The translations under genes and the position numbers were made by a program. The notes beneath the pieces were generated by a model that saw nothing but the letters and a program-made list of their open reading frames with translations, did no database searches and had not been told where the DNA came from. Below are positions 1,332 to 27,907 of a stretch of 43,010 nt of DNA, piece after piece (within the stretch, counting starts at the first letter, position 1; each line of letters opens with the position of its first letter). Source of the DNA: an uncultured bacterium (GTDB lineage: Bacteria; JAAXHH01); contig CAJXCW010000011.1 of the NCBI GenBank assembly GCA_913051705.1, forward strand, positions 1-43,010. The letters are read 5' to 3'.

Positions 1332-1933
1332 TCATTTTAAATCCTCGATGAATTGACGCCAGAGATGCTCCGTTGAACCGCCCAATATCTCAACTGCGTC
1401 TCTAAAGGGTGTCCCTTGTGATATAGCTTTGAGAAAGCGCTGGTATGACTGGAGGTCCCGGTCGTGGAGATATTCGACAAACATGGCACTCTGGCGGTAA
1501 AACAGGTGGTGTTGTAATCCGAGCACGGCGGCCGTCTTCCGAAAAAGATAGGCGCCGGTGTCTTCTGGCGTGAATGTTTCTCCGGAGAGCATAGCACGTC
1601 GCGCCGTGGTTCGGTCTACGGGTTCGGCGCCGCCACCTTCCGATACAAATACGGACAGCCCCTCCTGAAACCAGACCGGAAGACCCGTCTGGTAGGCGAA
1701 CCCCCCATGGTTTGTATCATGTGAAGATGAGAAAGTTCATGGGGCAGAATGCCCTGATGCGTATCGGTCTCGAACGCTCTGGGCTCATAATAAATCCTCG
1801 GATCTACCTGGTGCGCGATAAAGGCATCGGTGGAGGCCAATAGCGCCATCCCTGCTCGGGTGGTATATAATCCTGCTGCAACAGCCAGAATCAGAAACAG
1901 GCCGATCCACAAGAATATCATACGGAGACGCAT
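1332..1933 (-). pseudogene. Membrane-anchored zinc peptidase (peptidase MA-like), one frameshift
   Basis: Two frames together give one protein of about 200 residues. Part one starts at ATG 1933 with a single N-terminal membrane helix (FLWIGLFLILAVAAGL) and reaches LPHELSHLHMIQTMGG, where HELSH is an HExxH zinc site. Part two, in another frame, continues GFAYQTGLPVWFQEGLSVFV. The glutamate of this W-F-x-E-G-L block is the typical third zinc ligand of MA-clan gluzincins. It then runs through MLSGETFTPEDTG to the stop at 1332. The join lies in a run of six C at 1701-1706 (plus strand); one extra C would restore the frame. It is therefore either a recent pseudogene or a homopolymer sequencing error. 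Its ATG overlaps the stop of the upstream MFS gene by one base, implying translational coupling. Confidence 0.7.
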
Positions 1934-3078
1934 TATTCGTCCTGTTCTTTGTCTAAGTTTTCGCCCCTGAGCGAGCCTAACATGCGCAGGGCGGGTGAGA
2001 TGACGGCCATCGTGGTCACCACGGCGATAGTGCCGATCCCGCCGCTTACCACGGAGAACACCGGTCCGAACCAGTGGGCGACCAGGCCGGATTCGAGGCC
2101 GCCGAGTTCGTTGGACGCTCCGATGAATACGCTGCTGACGGCGGAGACCCGGCCCCGCATCCGGTCGGGCGTCAACAGTTGCAGCAGGGTATGGCGGATG
2201 ACCATGCTGATGTTGTCCAGGGCGCCGGTTAGAAACAACATCAGCATGGATAGCCAGAACGATTCGGAAATCCCGAATACAATCGTCGCCAGTCCGAAAC
2301 CTGCCACAGCCAGGAGCATATTGCGTCCGGCTTTCGACATCGGCGTCAGGTGGGCCAGCAGGATCGCCATGCAAAACGACCCGACAGCCGGCGCTGCGTT
2401 AAGCCAGCCGAATCCCCGTGCGTCTACATGCAGGATGTCCTCAGCAAAAATCGGCAGCAGATAGACGGCGCCGCCGAGCAGGACCGCGAACAGATCCAGA
2501 GAAATGATGGTGAGCAGAATACGCTTTCGGCAGAGAAATTCAATGCCGGCCAGGACCGTGCGTAAAGAAGCCGTTTCCGTGTGTTTCTCCGGGACATGAT
2601 GAAAGGGAAGCCGTTGAAGCCAGATGATAAAGAGTAGAGAGCTGGTCGCACAGATGACATAGGCCGCCGGTATATTCCACAGGAGGATAAATCCTCCGAT
2701 CGCCGGGCCGGCCACCGAAGTGATCTGGAATAGGCTCATATTCCAGGTGACCGCGTTGGCAAATATCTCACGTGGTACAATCTGCGGCAACAGCGCCACG
2801 CGAGCAGGCCTTCCGAACATAACAAAGGCGGCATCGAGGAAGAGAAGAAGGTACATCACATCGGTCGGTCCCTCAAAATAGGAAAGCGCCGCCAACCCCA
2901 ACGACGTGACCGTCATGCCAACCATGCTCAAGGTGACCACGTGTAATCGGTTGTAGCGATCGGCGATAAAACCTGCCGGCAGTGCCAATAACATCGCAGG
3001 GATCGCCTTCGTGAGTCCTACCAGACCCAGTGATAAGGCTTCCCCTGTCCGCTGGTACATCTCCCACCCGATTGCCAC
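1933..3078 (-). CDS. MFS transporter
   Basis: Major facilitator superfamily permease of the inner membrane, of the MFS_3/enterobactin-exporter-like type. It has many hydrophobic helices, the inter-helix motif GFIADRYNRLHVV (motif A, G-x-x-x-D-R) near residue 36, and a second-half equivalent near LTPDRMRGRVSAV. The substrate is unknown. The only canonical start is GTG 3078, but the frame stays open upstream to 3204. Those residues (AYRKYVFGWLFAAIGTQIQG) are exactly the usual first transmembrane helix of this family. No ATG, GTG or TTG exists in that extension, although AGGAAAGG lies at 3193-3200 with ATC at 3183 at proper spacing. The real protein is thus probably about 35 residues longer. It is coupled to the downstream peptidase gene by a TAATG overlap. 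Confidence 0.88.
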   Translation of the reverse strand: MAIGWEMYQRTGEALSLGLVGLTKAIPAMLLALPAGFIADRYNRLHVVTLSMVGMTVTSLGLAALSYFEGPTDVMYLLLFLDAAFVMFGRPARVALLPQIVPREIFANAVTWNMSLFQITSVAGPAIGGFILLWNIPAAYVICATSSLLFIIWLQRLPFHHVPEKHTETASLRTVLAGIEFLCRKRILLTIISLDLFAVLLGGAVYLLPIFAEDILHVDARGFGWLNAAPAVGSFCMAILLAHLTPMSKAGRNMLLAVAGFGLATIVFGISESFWLSMLMLFLTGALDNISMVIRHTLLQLLTPDRMRGRVSAVSSVFIGASNELGGLESGLVAHWFGPVFSVVSGGIGTIAVVTTMAVISPALRMLGSLRGENLDKEQDE

Positions 3079-3244
3079 GCCCTGAATCTGGGTACCGATC
3101 GCGGCGAAAAGCCAGCCGAATACATACTTACGATAGGCATCGATCCGAAATGCTGCATAGGCATCATGTTTTTCTATAGAGATTCGATTCGTCCTTTCCT
3201 GGTTTTACTCACATGGACAAAAGTCACTCGCTGTTTCATTCCTC

Positions 3245-3258
3245 TTGATATTAATCAA
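3245..3258. promoter_or_regulatory. FNR/CRP-family box
   Basis: TTGATATTAATCAA is a perfect palindrome matching the FNR-type consensus TTGAT-N4-ATCAA. It sits in the divergent intergenic region between the MFS gene (minus) and the DUF6785 gene (plus), so a Crp/Fnr-family regulator could act on either. A TTATTA hexamer at 3268 is a possible -10 but lies too close for a standard class II FNR promoter. No regulator of this family is seen in the window. Confidence 0.4.
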
Positions 3259-3301
3259 AGGCAGGTGTTATTATCAAGGATCTTTGTTCATAGGCACGCC
3301 A

Positions 3302-3367
3302 ATCATAATTCATAATTGCTGATCCCAGCGAGCGCTACGCGGTTCATAATTCATAATTCATAATTCA
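3302..3367. repeat. AATTCATAATTC tandem repeat
   Basis: Several copies of the decamer TTCATAATTC occur in two blocks around a GC-rich core (GCTGATCCCAGCGAGCGCTA, then CGCGG). The second block runs to 10 bases before the start codon of the next gene. Confidence 0.65.
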
Positions 3368-3376
3368 AAAATCCAT

Positions 3377-5365
3377 ATGTCCCTTTCCCGTATTCAAATA
3401 AAATCTATCCGCCAAAGTCAGCAATCCTCTCCTTCCCCGCTTCCGGTATCGGCCGGACTGACGATCAGGGCAATATCCGTTGGGCTTATCCTGTCGGTGC
3501 TGCTGAATATCTGGGGGATTCATTCATCCTATGTCACCAATGCCTCTATCGTCAGCCTGGCGCACCTGCCAATTACTACGGTATTCCCCTTTGTGCTGGT
3601 CGTCTTTGGCTTGAATCCGTTAATCAAATGGATCTTGCCAGGTAAAGGATTCACCCGCCAGGAACTGATCATTGTTTTCTTTCTGGTGTTTACCGCCTCG
3701 GCCATCCCCGCATGGGCGTTCAGTTCCTACGCGCTGTCGGTCATCAGCGGCCCCAATTATTTTGTGAGTCCCGAGAACCGTTGGGCGGAACTCTTCTTAT
3801 CTTCGGTTCCCTCCTGGTTGATCGTGCCCAACACGGATAATGCCCTCACCCCATTTTTTGAGGGGCTGGGGTCTGGCGATACTGCTGTCTGGCAGGTATG
3901 GATTATTCCTCTATTCTGGTGGCTTACGTTTTACGCGGCTATTTTTATCGTTGGGGCCTCGTTGATGGTCATTTTACGCAAGCAATGGGTAGAGCACGAA
4001 CGTCTCTCTTTTCCGCTGGCTCAGGTGCCCTTGTTACTGATCGAAGGCACAGATGGTCCATCCCTCTGGCCCCCTATCGTCAGAAGTCCTCTTTTCTGGA
4101 TGGGATTCGGAATCACCTTTTTTATTCTGTTATGGAATATGATCGGCTATTTTGGCTATCTGCCCACGATACGTATCGGACCGACGCATGCCACAGGGCT
4201 GGTGCTTTTTGACAAGGCCCCCAACATCAGCATCCGATTTAACTATCTGGTCGCCGGTATTGCCTATTTTACCCGTATAGAAGTGTTGTTCAGCGTCTGG
4301 TTTTTCTATCTGTTACGGATTATCCAGGAAGGCATGATGAATAACATGGGCGTCGCCAATAGTTACATGGTCCTTCAATTTCAACATCTGGGCGGACTGC
4401 TCACCATGGTCGTTTTTACCCTGTGGATGGCGCGAAGACATTTGAAACAGGTGTTTTATCATGCGCTCGGTCGTCCAAGTGATCTGGATGAAAGCAGAGA
4501 ATTTTTTTCTTATCGTCTGGCCGTATTCGGCGTGGCAGGCGGTTATCTATATCTGGTCGCCTGGCTGTATGCCGCCGGTGGGTCGCTTGTCCTGATTATC
4601 GTCATGATCACCATGTCCCTGCTGATTTTTGTCGGGATCTCACGGGTCGTGGCTGAAACAGGTCTGGCCGCCTTCGACATTCCCTACGACGCCGCCAACC
4701 GTGTTACCGTGGTGGTGGTCGGTACGGACCATATCGACGCGCAAACGCTGACGACGATGACCTTATGCCATACCTTCGCACGTAACTGGCGGACGCTGGG
4801 CATGTGTTCTATGGCGCATGCGGCCAAAATGGGAGATGTCATGGGCGGCGGTGTGGGCAAGGGGGTGTTCGGCATGATTACACTGACGCTGGTCTTGAGT
4901 ACGGCGACCGCGTTTGTCTACACCATCTATCTGGGATATGACTTCGGCGCGTCTCAGTTTACGGGTACGGCTTTTAAAAGAGGGGCGCAAGAGGTCTGGG
5001 ATGAGCTGGCCGGCTGGATCAACAACGCCCATCCCTATAAATCAACCCATGTCATCTATAGCAGTTCCGGTATACTGGTGATGTTCTTTTTACTCATTGT
5101 TCACCACCGATTCACCTGGTGGCCGCTCCATCCGATTGGATTCGGCGTCGTGGCTACCCACAGCGTAAACATGGCCGTCGCCAACTTTTTTTTCGTGTGG
5201 CTGGTGAAGGTGGTTATTTTCAGAGTGGGCGGCGTGGCCCTCTATCGAACCGTGCAACCTCTTGTGATCGGTATGATCGTCGCCTATGCCACCGGCGTGT
5301 TTATTTCCTTCGTCGTAGACCTGATCTGGTTCCCCGCCAATGGGCATCAGATTCATTCATTTTAG
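3377..5365 (+). CDS. DUF6785/DUF6784-family integral membrane protein
   Basis: A 662-residue polytopic inner-membrane protein with about 14 hydrophobic helices. The N-terminal two-thirds resemble DUF6785: an opening helix with GLILSVLLNIWGIHSSYV, then LTPFFEGLG and WVEHERLSFPLAQVPLLL. The last third resembles the DUF6784 tail (NMAVANFFFVWLVKVVIFR, then VGGVALYR). The overall fold is reminiscent of oligopeptide-transporter-like permeases, so solute transport is a reasonable inference. No substrate is established. The ATG start has no clear Shine-Dalgarno site and follows an AT-rich repeat. The gene stands alone between the FNR-type box and the efflux operon. It is intact and full length for the family. 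Confidence 0.8.
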   Translation: MSLSRIQIKSIRQSQQSSPSPLPVSAGLTIRAISVGLILSVLLNIWGIHSSYVTNASIVSLAHLPITTVFPFVLVVFGLNPLIKWILPGKGFTRQELIIVFFLVFTASAIPAWAFSSYALSVISGPNYFVSPENRWAELFLSSVPSWLIVPNTDNALTPFFEGLGSGDTAVWQVWIIPLFWWLTFYAAIFIVGASLMVILRKQWVEHERLSFPLAQVPLLLIEGTDGPSLWPPIVRSPLFWMGFGITFFILLWNMIGYFGYLPTIRIGPTHATGLVLFDKAPNISIRFNYLVAGIAYFTRIEVLFSVWFFYLLRIIQEGMMNNMGVANSYMVLQFQHLGGLLTMVVFTLWMARRHLKQVFYHALGRPSDLDESREFFSYRLAVFGVAGGYLYLVAWLYAAGGSLVLIIVMITMSLLIFVGISRVVAETGLAAFDIPYDAANRVTVVVVGTDHIDAQTLTTMTLCHTFARNWRTLGMCSMAHAAKMGDVMGGGVGKGVFGMITLTLVLSTATAFVYTIYLGYDFGASQFTGTAFKRGAQEVWDELAGWINNAHPYKSTHVIYSSSGILVMFFLLIVHHRFTWWPLHPIGFGVVATHSVNMAVANFFFVWLVKVVIFRVGGVALYRTVQPLVIGMIVAYATGVFISFVVDLIWFPANGHQIHSF

Positions 5366-17981: not shown

Positions 17982-19265
17982 ATGGAACGAGTATGGAAAC
18001 CCGTTCGGGTTGCCGTTACCGTTATGATGATACTGGCCGGCCAGACGGCGGCACAGGCGCAGGCAGCCGACACCACGGCGACCGCGATACAGCTCGATGC
18101 GCGAATAGACAGCCTCGCCGTACAACTGCGGCAGGCGCAGGAGGCGATAGAGCAGCAGCAGGCGCTTATTGAAATTCTGATACAGACGCAGGCGCAACCC
18201 TCCCCTGCTCTGCCTCAGGGTATGCCGGCAGTCGGGCAGCTTGTTGCCCCTCAGCAGGCATCCAACCTGTTGAATCCAAATATCAGTCTGATCGGGGATA
18301 TCCGGGCACAGGCGGGACGGGATTTTGCGCCTGACACAAGGGCATTTACGCTGCACGAGGCGGAAATCGGCATTCAGGCGCCGATCGATCCGTTTGCCAG
18401 GGCGGATGCGTTTATCGCCATGAGTCCGGAGGAAGGCGTGGATCTGGAAGAGATGTATATTACATTCCAGACGCTGCCGCTGGGATTACTGGCCAAAATC
18501 GGTAAATTCCGATCGAATTTCGGAAAATTCAACAGGACCCACGGACCCGAAACACCGTTCAGCGATCGGCCGCTTGTCACGGAAAACTATTTCGGCGAAG
18601 AGGGTCTGGCTGGCGTCGGGGTTTCACTCAGCCTGTTGATCCCTAACCCCTGGGTATACCTGAACCTCGACGCCGAATTCACGGCTAACCCGGAAGAAAC
18701 GCCGGCGTTCGCGATATTCGATTCGACGGCAGGCGCGTTCCTCACCGGGGGGCGACGACGTGACCTGCTGTATCTCACCCGACTCGGTACATTTCTGGAC
18801 CTGAGCGAAAGCACGAATCTGACGCTGGGCGCCACGTACGCAACCGGGGTGCATGCCCCGGCCGGCGCATTGCGCACACACATTGAGGGCCTGGATCTGA
18901 CGCTCCGATGGCAACCGCTGAGGCGCGCGATCTATACCTCCATAGAATGGCAGACAGAGTTGCTCTTCAGTCAGCGTGAACAGCCGGGCGGCGGGCGTGT
19001 CAACAGCAGTGGCCTGTTTTCCTATATCGACTGGCAGATATTACGCCGCTGGCATATCGGCGCGCGGTATGATTTCACGCAATTTCCCGACACGAATGTA
19101 GCGGATGAGCAGGGTGTGCTCGGATTTCTTACATTTACGCCTTCGGAATTCAGTATGATTACCGTGCAGGGACGGGGTGTGCGTCGTACAGACGGGGCAT
19201 GGCACGGCGTTGGTATGATGAAGATCACCTTTAACATCGGATCGCACGGCGCGCACCCGTATTGA
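17982..19265 (+). CDS. Outer-membrane porin of metal-uptake cluster
   Basis: About 427 residues: a signal peptide (AVTVMMILAGQTAAQAQA), then a coiled-coil segment (LDARIDSLAVQLRQAQEAIE and a run of QQQ) that may contact peptidoglycan or form a trimer stalk. A beta-barrel-like domain with alternating hydrophobics follows (SLIGDIRAQAGRDFAPDTRA, GLLAKIGKFRSNFGKFNRTH) and ends in an aromatic-poor terminal strand. Similar porin-like proteins are found beside znuA-like genes in Bacteroidetes and Planctomycetes-type genomes. ATG 17982 is preferred because AGGAGA lies eight bases upstream; ATG 17976 is too close and 17946 has no site. It is probably the outer-membrane entry for the metal bound by the next gene product. 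Confidence 0.72.
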   Translation: MERVWKPVRVAVTVMMILAGQTAAQAQAADTTATAIQLDARIDSLAVQLRQAQEAIEQQQALIEILIQTQAQPSPALPQGMPAVGQLVAPQQASNLLNPNISLIGDIRAQAGRDFAPDTRAFTLHEAEIGIQAPIDPFARADAFIAMSPEEGVDLEEMYITFQTLPLGLLAKIGKFRSNFGKFNRTHGPETPFSDRPLVTENYFGEEGLAGVGVSLSLLIPNPWVYLNLDAEFTANPEETPAFAIFDSTAGAFLTGGRRRDLLYLTRLGTFLDLSESTNLTLGATYATGVHAPAGALRTHIEGLDLTLRWQPLRRAIYTSIEWQTELLFSQREQPGGGRVNSSGLFSYIDWQILRRWHIGARYDFTQFPDTNVADEQGVLGFLTFTPSEFSMITVQGRGVRRTDGAWHGVGMMKITFNIGSHGAHPY

Positions 19266-21136: not shown

Positions 21137-21216
21137 CGGAGCAACTACGAAACGGCGATATGGTAAGGCGGGGCTACTCGATGATGCGCCGGCGGATGTC
21201 CGGCATTGGATATGAT

Positions 21217-22275
21217 ATGGTTTATAAAATCGGGATTGTAGGGACGGGCGGTATCGCCCATGCACATGGGAAGGCGGCTCAGGATATTGATGAGGTTGAA
21301 CTGACGGCGATTTGTGATGTTTCTCAGGAATCGTTGGATCGATATGGGGATCATTTTGGCGTGAAAAGACGCTATCAAGATCTTGAAACCATGTTGGTGA
21401 GGGAGGATCTGGACTTCGTGGTGATCTGCACCTGGGGGAATTCCCATGCGGAAATCAGCAATCGGATCGCAAATTCGCGGCGGCTCAAGGCGATATTATG
21501 CGAAAAACCTATTTGTTCAACAGCAGCCGAATGTGAAGAGATGATTACCGTAGCGAAGGACAACGGCATTCTGCTGGCTGAAGCGTTTAAATTCCGACAT
21601 CACCCGCGCCACCTCAAAGTCAAAGAGCTGATCGACTCGGGTCTTATAGGCGATGTAACCCTGATTCGCAGTACGTTCACTGGAGCCGGTAATCCGGTGC
21701 AGATGACTGCTGACCGAAACTGGCGGTTTAATAAGGAAAAAGGCGGCGGGGCGGTGTACGATCTGGGGTGTTATTGCATTCACCATGCCCGATTTATGAT
21801 CGGCGCAGAGCCTTTCCGTGTGTATGCCAGCGGTCATAAAGGCAAGTATAACGAGATCAATGAAGCCGTCGCCATCCAACTTGAGTTCCCCGATGAGATC
21901 AGTACTCAGATCGCCATCGCTTTTCGATATTTCGGGTCACAGGAGGCGGAAATATACGGTACCGATGGATATATCAGAACAGATCTTGCCTGGAATAACG
22001 AAAACCAGCCGGTGTCTCTCGAAGTCAAGTTGAAGAACGGCGACCGGCAAACCTATGATTTCGCCGCAGTAGATCAGTTCGCTTTACAGCTGCAACATAT
22101 GTGCGCCTGTCTGGAAACCGGTCAGGCACACCGTATCTCACCAGAGAACAGTCTGGGGCAGATGCAGGTCATCGATGCCGTCCATGCCTCTATCGCCAGC
22201 GGTAAGCCGGTGGAGCCTCAACGCTCTTCCACCTCCACGCCAAGCCCATCTGCCAATCGGTTGACGAAGGCATAA
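21217..22275 (+). CDS. Gfo/Idh/MocA-family oxidoreductase
   Basis: NAD(P)-dependent sugar-type dehydrogenase, 352 residues. The Rossmann motif is KIGIVGTGGIAHAHGKAA; the signature E-K-P occurs in AILCEKPICSTAAECEE. The C-terminal substrate domain has GGGAVYDLGCYCIHHARFMI with the usual D-x-x-x-H-like catalytic region. Family members oxidise or reduce cyclitols, hexoses or sugar phosphates; the substrate here is unknown. ATG 21217 is chosen because the Rossmann strand begins three residues later; the upstream frame to 21160 is Arg/Met-rich and unlike the family. The last 19 codons overlap the convergent AhpD-like gene by 58 bases, so the C-terminal tail after KPVEP may be an extension. Confidence 0.9.
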   Translation: MVYKIGIVGTGGIAHAHGKAAQDIDEVELTAICDVSQESLDRYGDHFGVKRRYQDLETMLVREDLDFVVICTWGNSHAEISNRIANSRRLKAILCEKPICSTAAECEEMITVAKDNGILLAEAFKFRHHPRHLKVKELIDSGLIGDVTLIRSTFTGAGNPVQMTADRNWRFNKEKGGGAVYDLGCYCIHHARFMIGAEPFRVYASGHKGKYNEINEAVAIQLEFPDEISTQIAIAFRYFGSQEAEIYGTDGYIRTDLAWNNENQPVSLEVKLKNGDRQTYDFAAVDQFALQLQHMCACLETGQAHRISPENSLGQMQVIDAVHASIASGKPVEPQRSSTSTPSPSANRLTKA

Positions 22276-22742
22276 TAGCCGGCAATCATGTTGATATGTA
22301 GTATATCACGATCCTCGAACCCAGCCGATCGCAGCGGCTTCATGTCCGATTCCGACATGTTCCACGGTTCCCGTGTCAGTTTAGCGGCATAATCGAGCAT
22401 CGCCCGGTCTGTCCCGTTTAACTCCGCTTTCGTGTAATCATCTTTCAATTGCTGTAACAATGCAGCATCTTTCGTCAGTCTAAGGAGCCCCTCCCCATGA
22501 TGCGTCATTCAGTATACGCAATGGTTTATCGAAGAGACCGCCACGGCAATCATCTCTCGTTGTGCCCGCGTTAAATGTGAACCGCGTCCATACATCAACT
22601 GTTTGTACATATCAATATGCCATGTATGTGATGCCGGATCGAGACTATGTATGATCTCTATATTATCTACCATCCCCGCATCATATAACGCTTTCAACTC
22701 GCCTTCTGCTTCATCTTCCGGGATCGTTTTTATCCAGGCCAT
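22218..22742 (-). CDS. AhpD-like peroxidase-related protein, probable selenoprotein (CxxU)
   Basis: Carboxymuconolactone-decarboxylase/AhpD-fold protein of the 'peroxidase-related enzyme' group; such proteins use a CxxC pair with a nearby His in thiol peroxidase chemistry. The full-length frame is 174 codons and carries one in-frame TGA at codon 78 (22509-22511). Around it the sequence reads INHCVY-(TGA)-MTHHGEGLL, where relatives have N-x-C-x-Y-C-x-x-H-H-G. The TGA therefore sits exactly on the second redox cysteine. Upstream is MAWIKTIPEDEAEGELKALY; downstream MLDYAAKLTREPW and FVNRLADGLGVEVEE match the family to its end. A strong AGGAGG precedes ATG 22742. A hairpin follows the TGA (22481-22497). 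Selenocysteine insertion is the best reading; the alternative is a single TGC-to-TGA nonsense mutation giving a 77-residue stub. Confidence 0.7.
22481..22497 (-). promoter_or_regulatory. Putative bacterial SECIS hairpin
   Basis: In the mRNA, GGAG pairs with CUCC around a GGG loop. Two G-U pairs and a U-A pair extend the stem to seven pairs. The loop begins 18 bases after the UGA. A further GCAUC/GAUGC pairing (22499-22503 with 22465-22469) could close a longer lower stem. From memory of the published bacterial SECIS model, a G at the start of the apical loop, a stem of at least four pairs and a UGA-to-loop distance of roughly 16-37 bases are all met. Confidence 0.5.
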
Positions 22743-23098
22743 TGTTCCTCCTGAGCTTAGGGACTGGTGTTTTGCTCTGCTGTGCGAACGAAGAGGAGTT
22801 CATCGTACGGCAGGGTCGCGTTCGCAAGGGTAACCCAGCAGTTGATAATACTGAATACTACACTGAAACACAAGTAAACAGTCATCATAAAATCAGACTG
22901 GAAATCGGAGCAGGCACCTTCTTTCTATGGCCTTGTCTCCAGGGGGAATTTTTTGCCTCTCAGGTTCTGGACGGCAAATTGTCCCCTGTTGATTTGTTAT
23001 TCATGAATCGGAATAAGATTAATTATTACAATAAGATAGAGTCATAGTGATGCTGCGAGGTGACCGGGTTATTATCAGCGTAACGATCGTCGTCTACG
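22743..23098. other. Intergenic region, no recognised gene
   Basis: About 350 bases. A plus-strand open frame (22742-23047) encodes FIVRQGRVRKGNPAVDNTEY and similar text that I cannot assign. An imperfect inverted repeat, CAGGGGGAATTT near 22940 against AAATTGTCCCCTG near 22976, is visible. The 3' part may be more of the decayed flagellin gene that follows. Confidence 0.4.
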
Positions 23099-26483: not shown

Positions 26484-27728
26484 CTACGGGCTGATCAATA
26501 ATTCCAGGGGTTCTTCGAGTATGGATTTGAAACGCGCTAAGAAGCGGGCGGCGAGGGCCCCGTCAACAAGTCGATGGTCAGAAGATAACGTCACCGACAT
26601 CATGGTCCGAATCACCACTTCATCCTCGACCACAACGGGTTGTTTCTTGATCTGCCCAACAGCCAGAATGGCTGCTTCCGGTGGATTGATAATAGCCGTA
26701 AACTGATCAACGCCGAACATGCCCAGATTGGAGATGGTAAAGGTGCCATACCCGTAATCTTCAGGGGTAAGGCCGCCCTCCTTGGCTTTTTTATTCAAAG
26801 ATTTTGTTATCTCTGCAATGCGGAATACAGAATGCACGTTCGCCGCAGGCACAACCGGTACGACCAGCCCCTCATCCAGGGCGACTGCAAATCCGACATG
26901 GGCATCGGCATATTGTTCAATGATATTTCCATCTAAAGAGGCATTAACCGCAGGCACATCATGCAACGCCATACCGGCTGCTTTAATCAACATGTCGTTG
27001 ATGGATATCCTCGGCAGATTACGGGCCTCACCATAGGATAAAAATTCTTTTCGCAACTCGGCAGCTCGCGTCATGTCTATGGTCATGGTAAGATAAAAAT
27101 GAGGGACCGTCGATGTGCTTTCGGTCAACCGTGTCGCCGCGATTTTGCGAATGCCGGTAAGCGGTGTGCGGCTTATAACCTGTTTCGAAGCACGGTCTGA
27201 AGGCAGCGCGGCGGCAGCTTCCTGTGATGTGGTTTCCACTTGGGATGCGGCGTAGGTCTCCACATCAGCAAATACGATACGGCCTCCGGGGCCTGTGCCC
27301 TCTATCTGATCGAGTGGAATACTGAGGCTGCCCGCTCGTTTCCGCGCTTTAGGTGAAGCTTTGATCCGATTCGGTTTGATAGCAACAGCATCAATGGAAG
27401 TGGAGTTTGATCCATTATGCCCCTTAGCCTCTACAACGGGCGCAGAGGTCCCGGCATCAACCGAGACGACATTATCCGGCAGGGCCTCATCCGGGTTACC
27501 GATGTACGCGATGACCTGTTGGATCGGTATCTCATCACCGGGGCCATGGAGGATTTTCAAAAGTGTCCCGGTGGTACGGGCTTCTACCTCTGCCAGGCTT
27601 TTATCCGTTTCTACCGTAAATAATACATCCCCCTCTGAAACAGATTCCCCCTCCTGTTTCATCCATTCTACTATGACCCCGGACTCCATGGTCATTCCCA
27701 ATACGGGCATAATGACGTCTACAGCCAT
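26484..27728 (-). CDS. Dihydrolipoamide acyltransferase (E2) of a 2-oxoacid dehydrogenase complex
   Basis: Core acyltransferase of a pyruvate-, branched-chain- or acetoin-dehydrogenase-type complex, 414 residues. Domains in order: an N-terminal lipoyl domain (VDVIMPVLGMTMESGVIVEW, lipoylated Lys in FTVETDKSLAEVEA); a linker; a peripheral-subunit-binding domain (IKASPKARKRAGSLSIPLDQ, then IEGTGPGGRI); and a catalytic domain from about residue 190 ending with SSDHRLVDGALAARFL, where His and Asp-Gly are catalytic. ATG 27728 is chosen because AGGAG lies seven bases upstream and the lipoyl domain starts directly; the frame is open to 27785. No E1 or E3 gene is adjacent, which is unusual for an operon-encoded complex. 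Confidence 0.93.
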   Translation of the reverse strand: MAVDVIMPVLGMTMESGVIVEWMKQEGESVSEGDVLFTVETDKSLAEVEARTTGTLLKILHGPGDEIPIQQVIAYIGNPDEALPDNVVSVDAGTSAPVVEAKGHNGSNSTSIDAVAIKPNRIKASPKARKRAGSLSIPLDQIEGTGPGGRIVFADVETYAASQVETTSQEAAAALPSDRASKQVISRTPLTGIRKIAATRLTESTSTVPHFYLTMTIDMTRAAELRKEFLSYGEARNLPRISINDMLIKAAGMALHDVPAVNASLDGNIIEQYADAHVGFAVALDEGLVVPVVPAANVHSVFRIAEITKSLNKKAKEGGLTPEDYGYGTFTISNLGMFGVDQFTAIINPPEAAILAVGQIKKQPVVVEDEVVIRTMMSVTLSSDHRLVDGALAARFLARFKSILEEPLELLISP

Positions 27729-27907
27729 GTTTTGCTCCTGATGGAACGCGTAATCGTTTGCATCCTGTGGATTGTTTTTCGACAAATAATATGGTTAATA
27801 ACAAGTCCGTAGATCATACACGGGCTCATAAGAATCGTCAAGTGTTTTCTGGGCTTGAACGGCGCGATAGTATGGCCTGTTTCTCCTTTTGGAATCGGCC
27901 TTTTCTG

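Follow-up and report, generated by a model that had tools for sequence, protein, structure and literature searches.

A single in-frame TGA in an AhpD-like gene

The DNA analysed here (the window) is a stretch of 43,010 nucleotides from an assembly of 5.45 Mb in 405 contigs. Its minus strand carries an AhpD-like gene that runs from an ATG at 22742-22740 to a terminal TGA at 22220-22218, and the 174-codon frame between them holds exactly one internal TGA, codon 78 (22511-22509). The gene and its associated elements are listed below.

22747-22752, minus strand (CCTCCT on the plus strand): Shine-Dalgarno sequence AGGAGG, 4 nt 5′ of the ATG (from the sequence)
22218-22742, minus strand: predicted AhpD-like "peroxidase-related" selenoprotein gene, 174 aa (from translation and profile matches)
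22518-22520, minus strand: codon of Cys75, which opens the CxxU motif (from translation; invariant in homologues)
22509-22511, minus strand: in-frame TGA, predicted Sec78, second position of C75-V-Y-U78 (from translation and the homologue column)
22481-22497, minus strand: predicted bacterial SECIS hairpin TGGGGAG-GGG-CTCCTTA, with a 7-bp stem and the loop GGG at 22490-22488 (from folding, recoding and homologues)
Translation with TGA = U: MAWIKTIPEDEAEGELKALYDAGMVDNIEIIHSLDPASHTWHIDMYKQLMYGRGSHLTRAQREMIAVAVSSINHCVYUMTHHGEGLLRLTKDAALLQQLKDDYTKAELNGTDRAMLDYAAKLTREPWNMSESDMKPLRSAGFEDRDILHINMIAGYYAFVNRLADGLGVEVEER

A first-pass annotation, made from the sequence of the window, had described a full-length frame with a single TGA at the second Cys of a C-x-x-C motif, preceded by a strong AGGAGG and followed by intact family sequence. 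The translation bears this out, giving CVYUMTHH within 174 residues on the minus strand, which that annotation had left unstated, and the AGGAGG is found where it was expected, just upstream of the ATG. In a profile search, the window protein matched TIGR01926 "peroxidase-related enzyme" at 143.4 bits, against a cut-off of 81.8, and the match spans positions 3-175 of the 178 in the profile.

Among other profiles, Pfam CMD was matched at 44.4 bits and the NCBIfam model for ahpD, TIGR00777, gave no match to the window protein. Two further families can be set aside: the score for NF041238 (AhpD_rel_CFYUT) is 51.3 bits, far under its cut-off of 175, and NF053654 (GroundWater_YciW) is matched by the paralogues only, again with scores far under the cut-off. 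The window protein is therefore a member of neither.

Other features of the window were recorded along the way. A convergent Gfo/Idh/MocA-type gene (21160-22275) overlaps the 3′ end of the AhpD-like gene by 58 bases. An MFS transporter gene (1340-3078, minus strand) consists of two overlapping frames and a TAG, an arrangement compatible with a frame-disrupted gene. Two long frames are separated by a second same-frame TGA (19263-19265), which was considered as a candidate and rejected: it is the ordinary stop of an unnamed gene, and the signal peptide of a ZnuA gene begins just after it.

Homologues share the TGA and are under selection on both sides of it

We found full-length homologues with exactly one internal TGA in all 14 genomes of the family and in all 16 genomes of the phylum. 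All TIGR01926-type sequences of the phylum that were read have TGA at the codon aligned with position 78, and their first Cys is always intact, as TGC or TGT. Four TGA paralogues are present in the source genome, the window gene included (the other three, L027, L033 and L034, are on contigs C125, C335 and C32); two of its six CMD-family genes are without a TGA. The same column is TGC in six Cys homologues of other phyla, carried on plasmids of Tritonibacter, Aureibacter, Aminobacter, Deinococcus, Tsukamurella and Thermus, and TGT in the distant CMD-type protein of genome G011 (one sequence).

The closest homologue of the window protein (69%) is found in genome G013, and the closest named relative, at 67% identity, belongs to a Candidatus Zixiibacteriota MAG (L012). 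In a maximum-likelihood tree, Sec and Cys forms interleave: well-supported branches require at least two changes, and the group that contains the window protein also takes in the Cys forms of Tritonibacter and others; since the tree has a small Cys sample and some long branches, we claim no direction for the Sec/Cys change. The alternation of Cys and TGA at this column, which the first-pass annotation had put forward as a check, is thus observed, with TGA in the close homologues and TGC in the Cys homologues. Within the lineage we found several Sec copies of TIGR01926 and no Cys copy, which makes it well suited to asking why Sec is retained.

In pairwise comparisons of homologues, pN is much smaller than pS both 5′ and 3′ of the TGA. 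Between the window gene and its closest relative, pN and pS are 0.204 and 0.705 before the TGA and 0.193 and 0.854 after it; selection would not preserve a truncated gene in this way. Further disruptive mutations in the homologues, which had been named as a reason to doubt the gene, were looked for and none was found; purifying selection persists 3′ of the TGA.

A conserved hairpin follows the TGA

The first-pass annotation had also pointed to a hairpin with a G-rich loop beginning 18 bases past the TGA, and this structure was recovered. With 18 nt between the TGA and the loop and a folding energy of -9.2 to -10.0 kcal/mol, it satisfies all the constraints given for bacterial SECIS elements in a 2026 review, namely a loop of 3-9 nt with a G in one of its first two positions, a stem of 4-16 bp, a spacing of 16-37 nt from the UGA and an MFE of at most -7.5 kcal/mol (PMC13188914).

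When the same peptide was recoded with synonymous codons (3,000-4,000 recodings), the full 7-bp stem in this register appeared in 0.08-0.27% of cases, and 8.7% had a SECIS-like stem of 7 bp at some position within the permitted range (p about 0.09). Accordingly, the hairpin in a single sequence is weak evidence. Its recurrence in relatives makes the evidence for this putative SECIS strong: a hairpin is located at +18 or +19 in all lineages, with stem sequences that differ between the paralogous clades (TGGGGAG/CTCCTCA, ACGCAGA/TCTGCGT and ACGGAGA/TCTCCGT). One compensatory pair, a C-G to G-C change, separates the ACGCAGA/TCTGCGT and ACGGAGA/TCTCCGT clades; covariation was counted for two clades only because the hairpin is offset by one base between clades.

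Synonymous codons are also better kept within the hairpin than outside it. In the three Sec clades 83%, 93% and 100% of them are kept within the hairpin, against 39-43% elsewhere, whereas the Cys homologues show no such effect (35% kept at the hairpin site against 39% elsewhere); the pairs in this test are phylogenetically non-independent and its very small p values are not to be taken at face value.

The source genome encodes the Sec machinery and further probable selenoproteins

The sel genes, whose presence had been proposed as a check, were all found in the source genome. At C222:8435-8528 lies a tRNA-Sec whose anticodon is TCA (69.6 bits; gathering threshold 47); a second match above the cut-off was rejected as a tRNA-Ser. 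SelA was found at 506 bits. An N-terminal part of SelB (316 bits) reaches the end of contig C156 (L043) and a C-terminal piece lies at the end of contig C222 (L042), beside the tRNA-Sec; the two are probably parts of a single gene that was broken in assembly. SelD (284.7 bits) forms the C-terminus of a 735-residue protein (L058:304-2511) and has a CxxC in its SelD part. By inspection, the N-terminus of this protein looks like a pyridine-nucleotide disulfide oxidoreductase of the NADH-dehydrogenase type, that is, an Ndh-SelD fusion, and such fusions have been reported in Global Ocean Sampling data (PMC2398784). Across the family, a tRNA-Sec passes the cut-off in 12 of 13 genomes, the exception being G013, an assembly in 430 contigs.

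We also identified two genes with one TGA each among the 14 AhpC-TSA matches of the source genome. One of them (L081:1036-1578, contig C26) is of the AhpC/TSA family, with the TGA in SASWUPFCKK (UxxC) followed by a 7-bp hairpin, GCAGUUG-GGG-CAACUGC, and probably encodes a Sec peroxiredoxin-like protein. The other (L082:1031-1771, contig C72) is a thioredoxin-like AhpC-TSA gene with the TGA in WASWUACREQ followed by a strong hairpin, and is a probable selenoprotein gene as well. Together with the four TGA-containing CMD genes, this gives at least six probable selenoprotein genes in the organism. SelW/Rdx was looked for in the genome and not found.

On contig C45 (L083:933-2099), a Cys-type CMD gene has a thioredoxin-like AhpC-TSA gene immediately after it, possibly an AhpD/AhpC-type pair without Sec.

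Pseudogene, sequencing error and TGA reassignment

We considered whether the TGA could be a mutated or misread TGC, in which case the gene would be a pseudogene or a product of sequencing or assembly error and its protein truncated. The assembly is indeed fragmentary, and a frame disruption is possible in the MFS gene close to where the window begins, but 16 independent assemblies agree on TGA at this codon in each of their full-length homologues, as do all four paralogues of this genome; selection is purifying past the TGA, and the hairpin is conserved. Judging from these comparisons, we give a pseudogene or an error a negligible chance and consider both excluded for practical purposes. A frame that stays open through one TGA could also be expected if the host had reassigned TGA or read it with an ordinary tRNA, for example that of Trp. 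In the window, however, TGA terminates 10 of the 27 genes and tryptophan is encoded by TGG 154 times, so the code is not reassigned; TGA occurs only at the redox Cys column, with none seen at conserved Trp columns, and tRNA-Sec, SelA, SelB and SelD are all present. Reassignment is thus extremely improbable.

Collectively, the TGA column, the SECIS hairpin, the sel genes and the selection past the TGA support what the first-pass annotation had proposed, an AhpD-like selenoprotein with Sec at the second redox Cys. The sequence evidence that this TGA is read as selenocysteine is very strong, and Sec is predicted to be incorporated at codon 78.

Proposed chemistry of Sec78

An AlphaFold model of the protein, made from an alignment leaving out four plasmid-record sequences, has a pLDDT of 84 and the all-helical AhpD-like fold. 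Foldseek matched it at a TM of about 0.8 to 3c1l, 6k40, 2pfx, 2prr and 2oyo, and more weakly to the debrominase Bmp8 (6ohi/6ohj, TM 0.73) and to sestrin. Across 18 sequences of Sec and Cys homologues, the invariant columns include E63, C75, Y77, C/U78 and H82. In the window protein these residues map onto the proton relays described for P. aeruginosa PA0269 (Glu36, Cys48, Tyr50, Cys51 and His55) and M. tuberculosis AhpD (Glu118, Cys130, His132, Cys133 and His137) (PMC3141380), with the predicted Sec78 as the equivalent of AhpD Cys133.

We propose that codon 78, a UGA, would receive Sec-tRNA(Sec) from SelB bound to the downstream hairpin, giving the active-site motif Cys75-Val-Tyr-Sec78, with Glu63, Cys75, Tyr77, Sec78 and His82 as the putative proton-relay set. 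Sec78 would attack a peroxide or accept a disulfide, Cys75 would resolve Sec78 by forming a selenosulfide, and this would then be reduced again by a thiol donor. We regard it as almost certain that the gene is a TIGR01926 selenoprotein gene of the AhpD/CMD fold, with Sec78 predicted to be inserted via hairpin-bound SelB and with a peroxide or disulfide chemistry of Sec78 and Cys75 that we infer. From the family and the motif, the function is probably that of a selenol/thiol peroxidase or a disulfide adaptor with a Sec-Cys selenosulfide intermediate; the electron donor would be a thiol and the substrate a peroxide or a disulfide.

It is possible, although we think it rather unlikely, that the protein is a real selenoprotein and not a peroxidase, but instead a CMD-fold thiol/selenol reductase with a different substrate, such as a Bmp8-like reductive dehalogenase or a pure disulfide adaptor to a peroxiredoxin. 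The Foldseek matches to Bmp8 and sestrin are in line with this, the Bmp8 likeness being one of fold only, as are the Sec peroxiredoxin-like gene in the same genome and the weak peroxidase activity that is all P. aeruginosa AhpD displays (PMC3141380). On the other hand, it is peroxidase-related AhpD proteins that the window protein matches most closely, both by sequence and by fold, and all five relay residues are retained, which speaks for peroxidase-type chemistry of the selenoprotein.

A comparison of the gene neighbourhood across four relatives revealed no shared partner. In the window, a gene for the acyltransferase (E2) of a 2-oxoacid dehydrogenase is located on the same strand (26484-27785), about 3.7 kb from the AhpD-like gene. 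The E2 of 2-oxoacid dehydrogenase reduces AhpD in M. tuberculosis. As the neighbourhood is not conserved, the E2 neighbour as reductant is only a lead.

Significance and comparison with known selenoproteins

Standard annotation would split such a gene in two or label it a pseudogene. Our analysis adds a well-supported selenoprotein gene in a little-studied phylum, in which the nearest named record is that of Candidatus Zixiibacteriota. A wider hypothesis, which we hold to be improbable, is that this phylum has fixed the Sec form of TIGR01926, with several paralogues per genome and none of them Cys, perhaps for different peroxides or for reductive dehalogenation, and that these work with Sec peroxiredoxins in a largely selenol-based peroxide defence.

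The gene belongs to a selenoprotein family that is already catalogued, so that the kind itself is not novel and the knowledge of selenoproteins as a kind is unchanged by it. The first-pass annotation had noted that AhpD-like selenoprotein families are known from environmental surveys, and the literature agrees: AhpD-like CxxU selenoproteins were described in the Sargasso Sea, with 27 sequences (PMC1088965), and AhpD-like selenoproteins again in the Global Ocean Sampling data (PMC2398784). These proteins, AhpD-like 1 and 2, have CxxU in COG2128/pfam02627 proteins with widespread Cys homologues (PMC1088965, PMC2398784). The (seleno)proteins of NF041238 and NF053654 likewise resemble the window protein in having a related domain with Sec placed in a motif of this type.

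The Cys "peroxidase-related" proteins 3c1l, 2pfx, 6k40, 2oyo and 2prr are 30-40% identical to the window protein over most of the chain and have Cys where it has the predicted Sec. M. tuberculosis AhpD and P. aeruginosa PA0269 are remote overall, yet they have the relay residues Glu, Cys, (His/Tyr), Cys and His in the same spacing, and their second Cys is Sec here. The nearest counterpart is the "AhpD-like protein, TIGR01926, CxxU" of the 2026 catalogue (example MCB9421940.1; PMC13188914). Compared by its catalogue entry, it belongs to the same family over the cut-off and has the same motif and one Sec, as does the window protein, and the two differ only in lineage and paralogue number.
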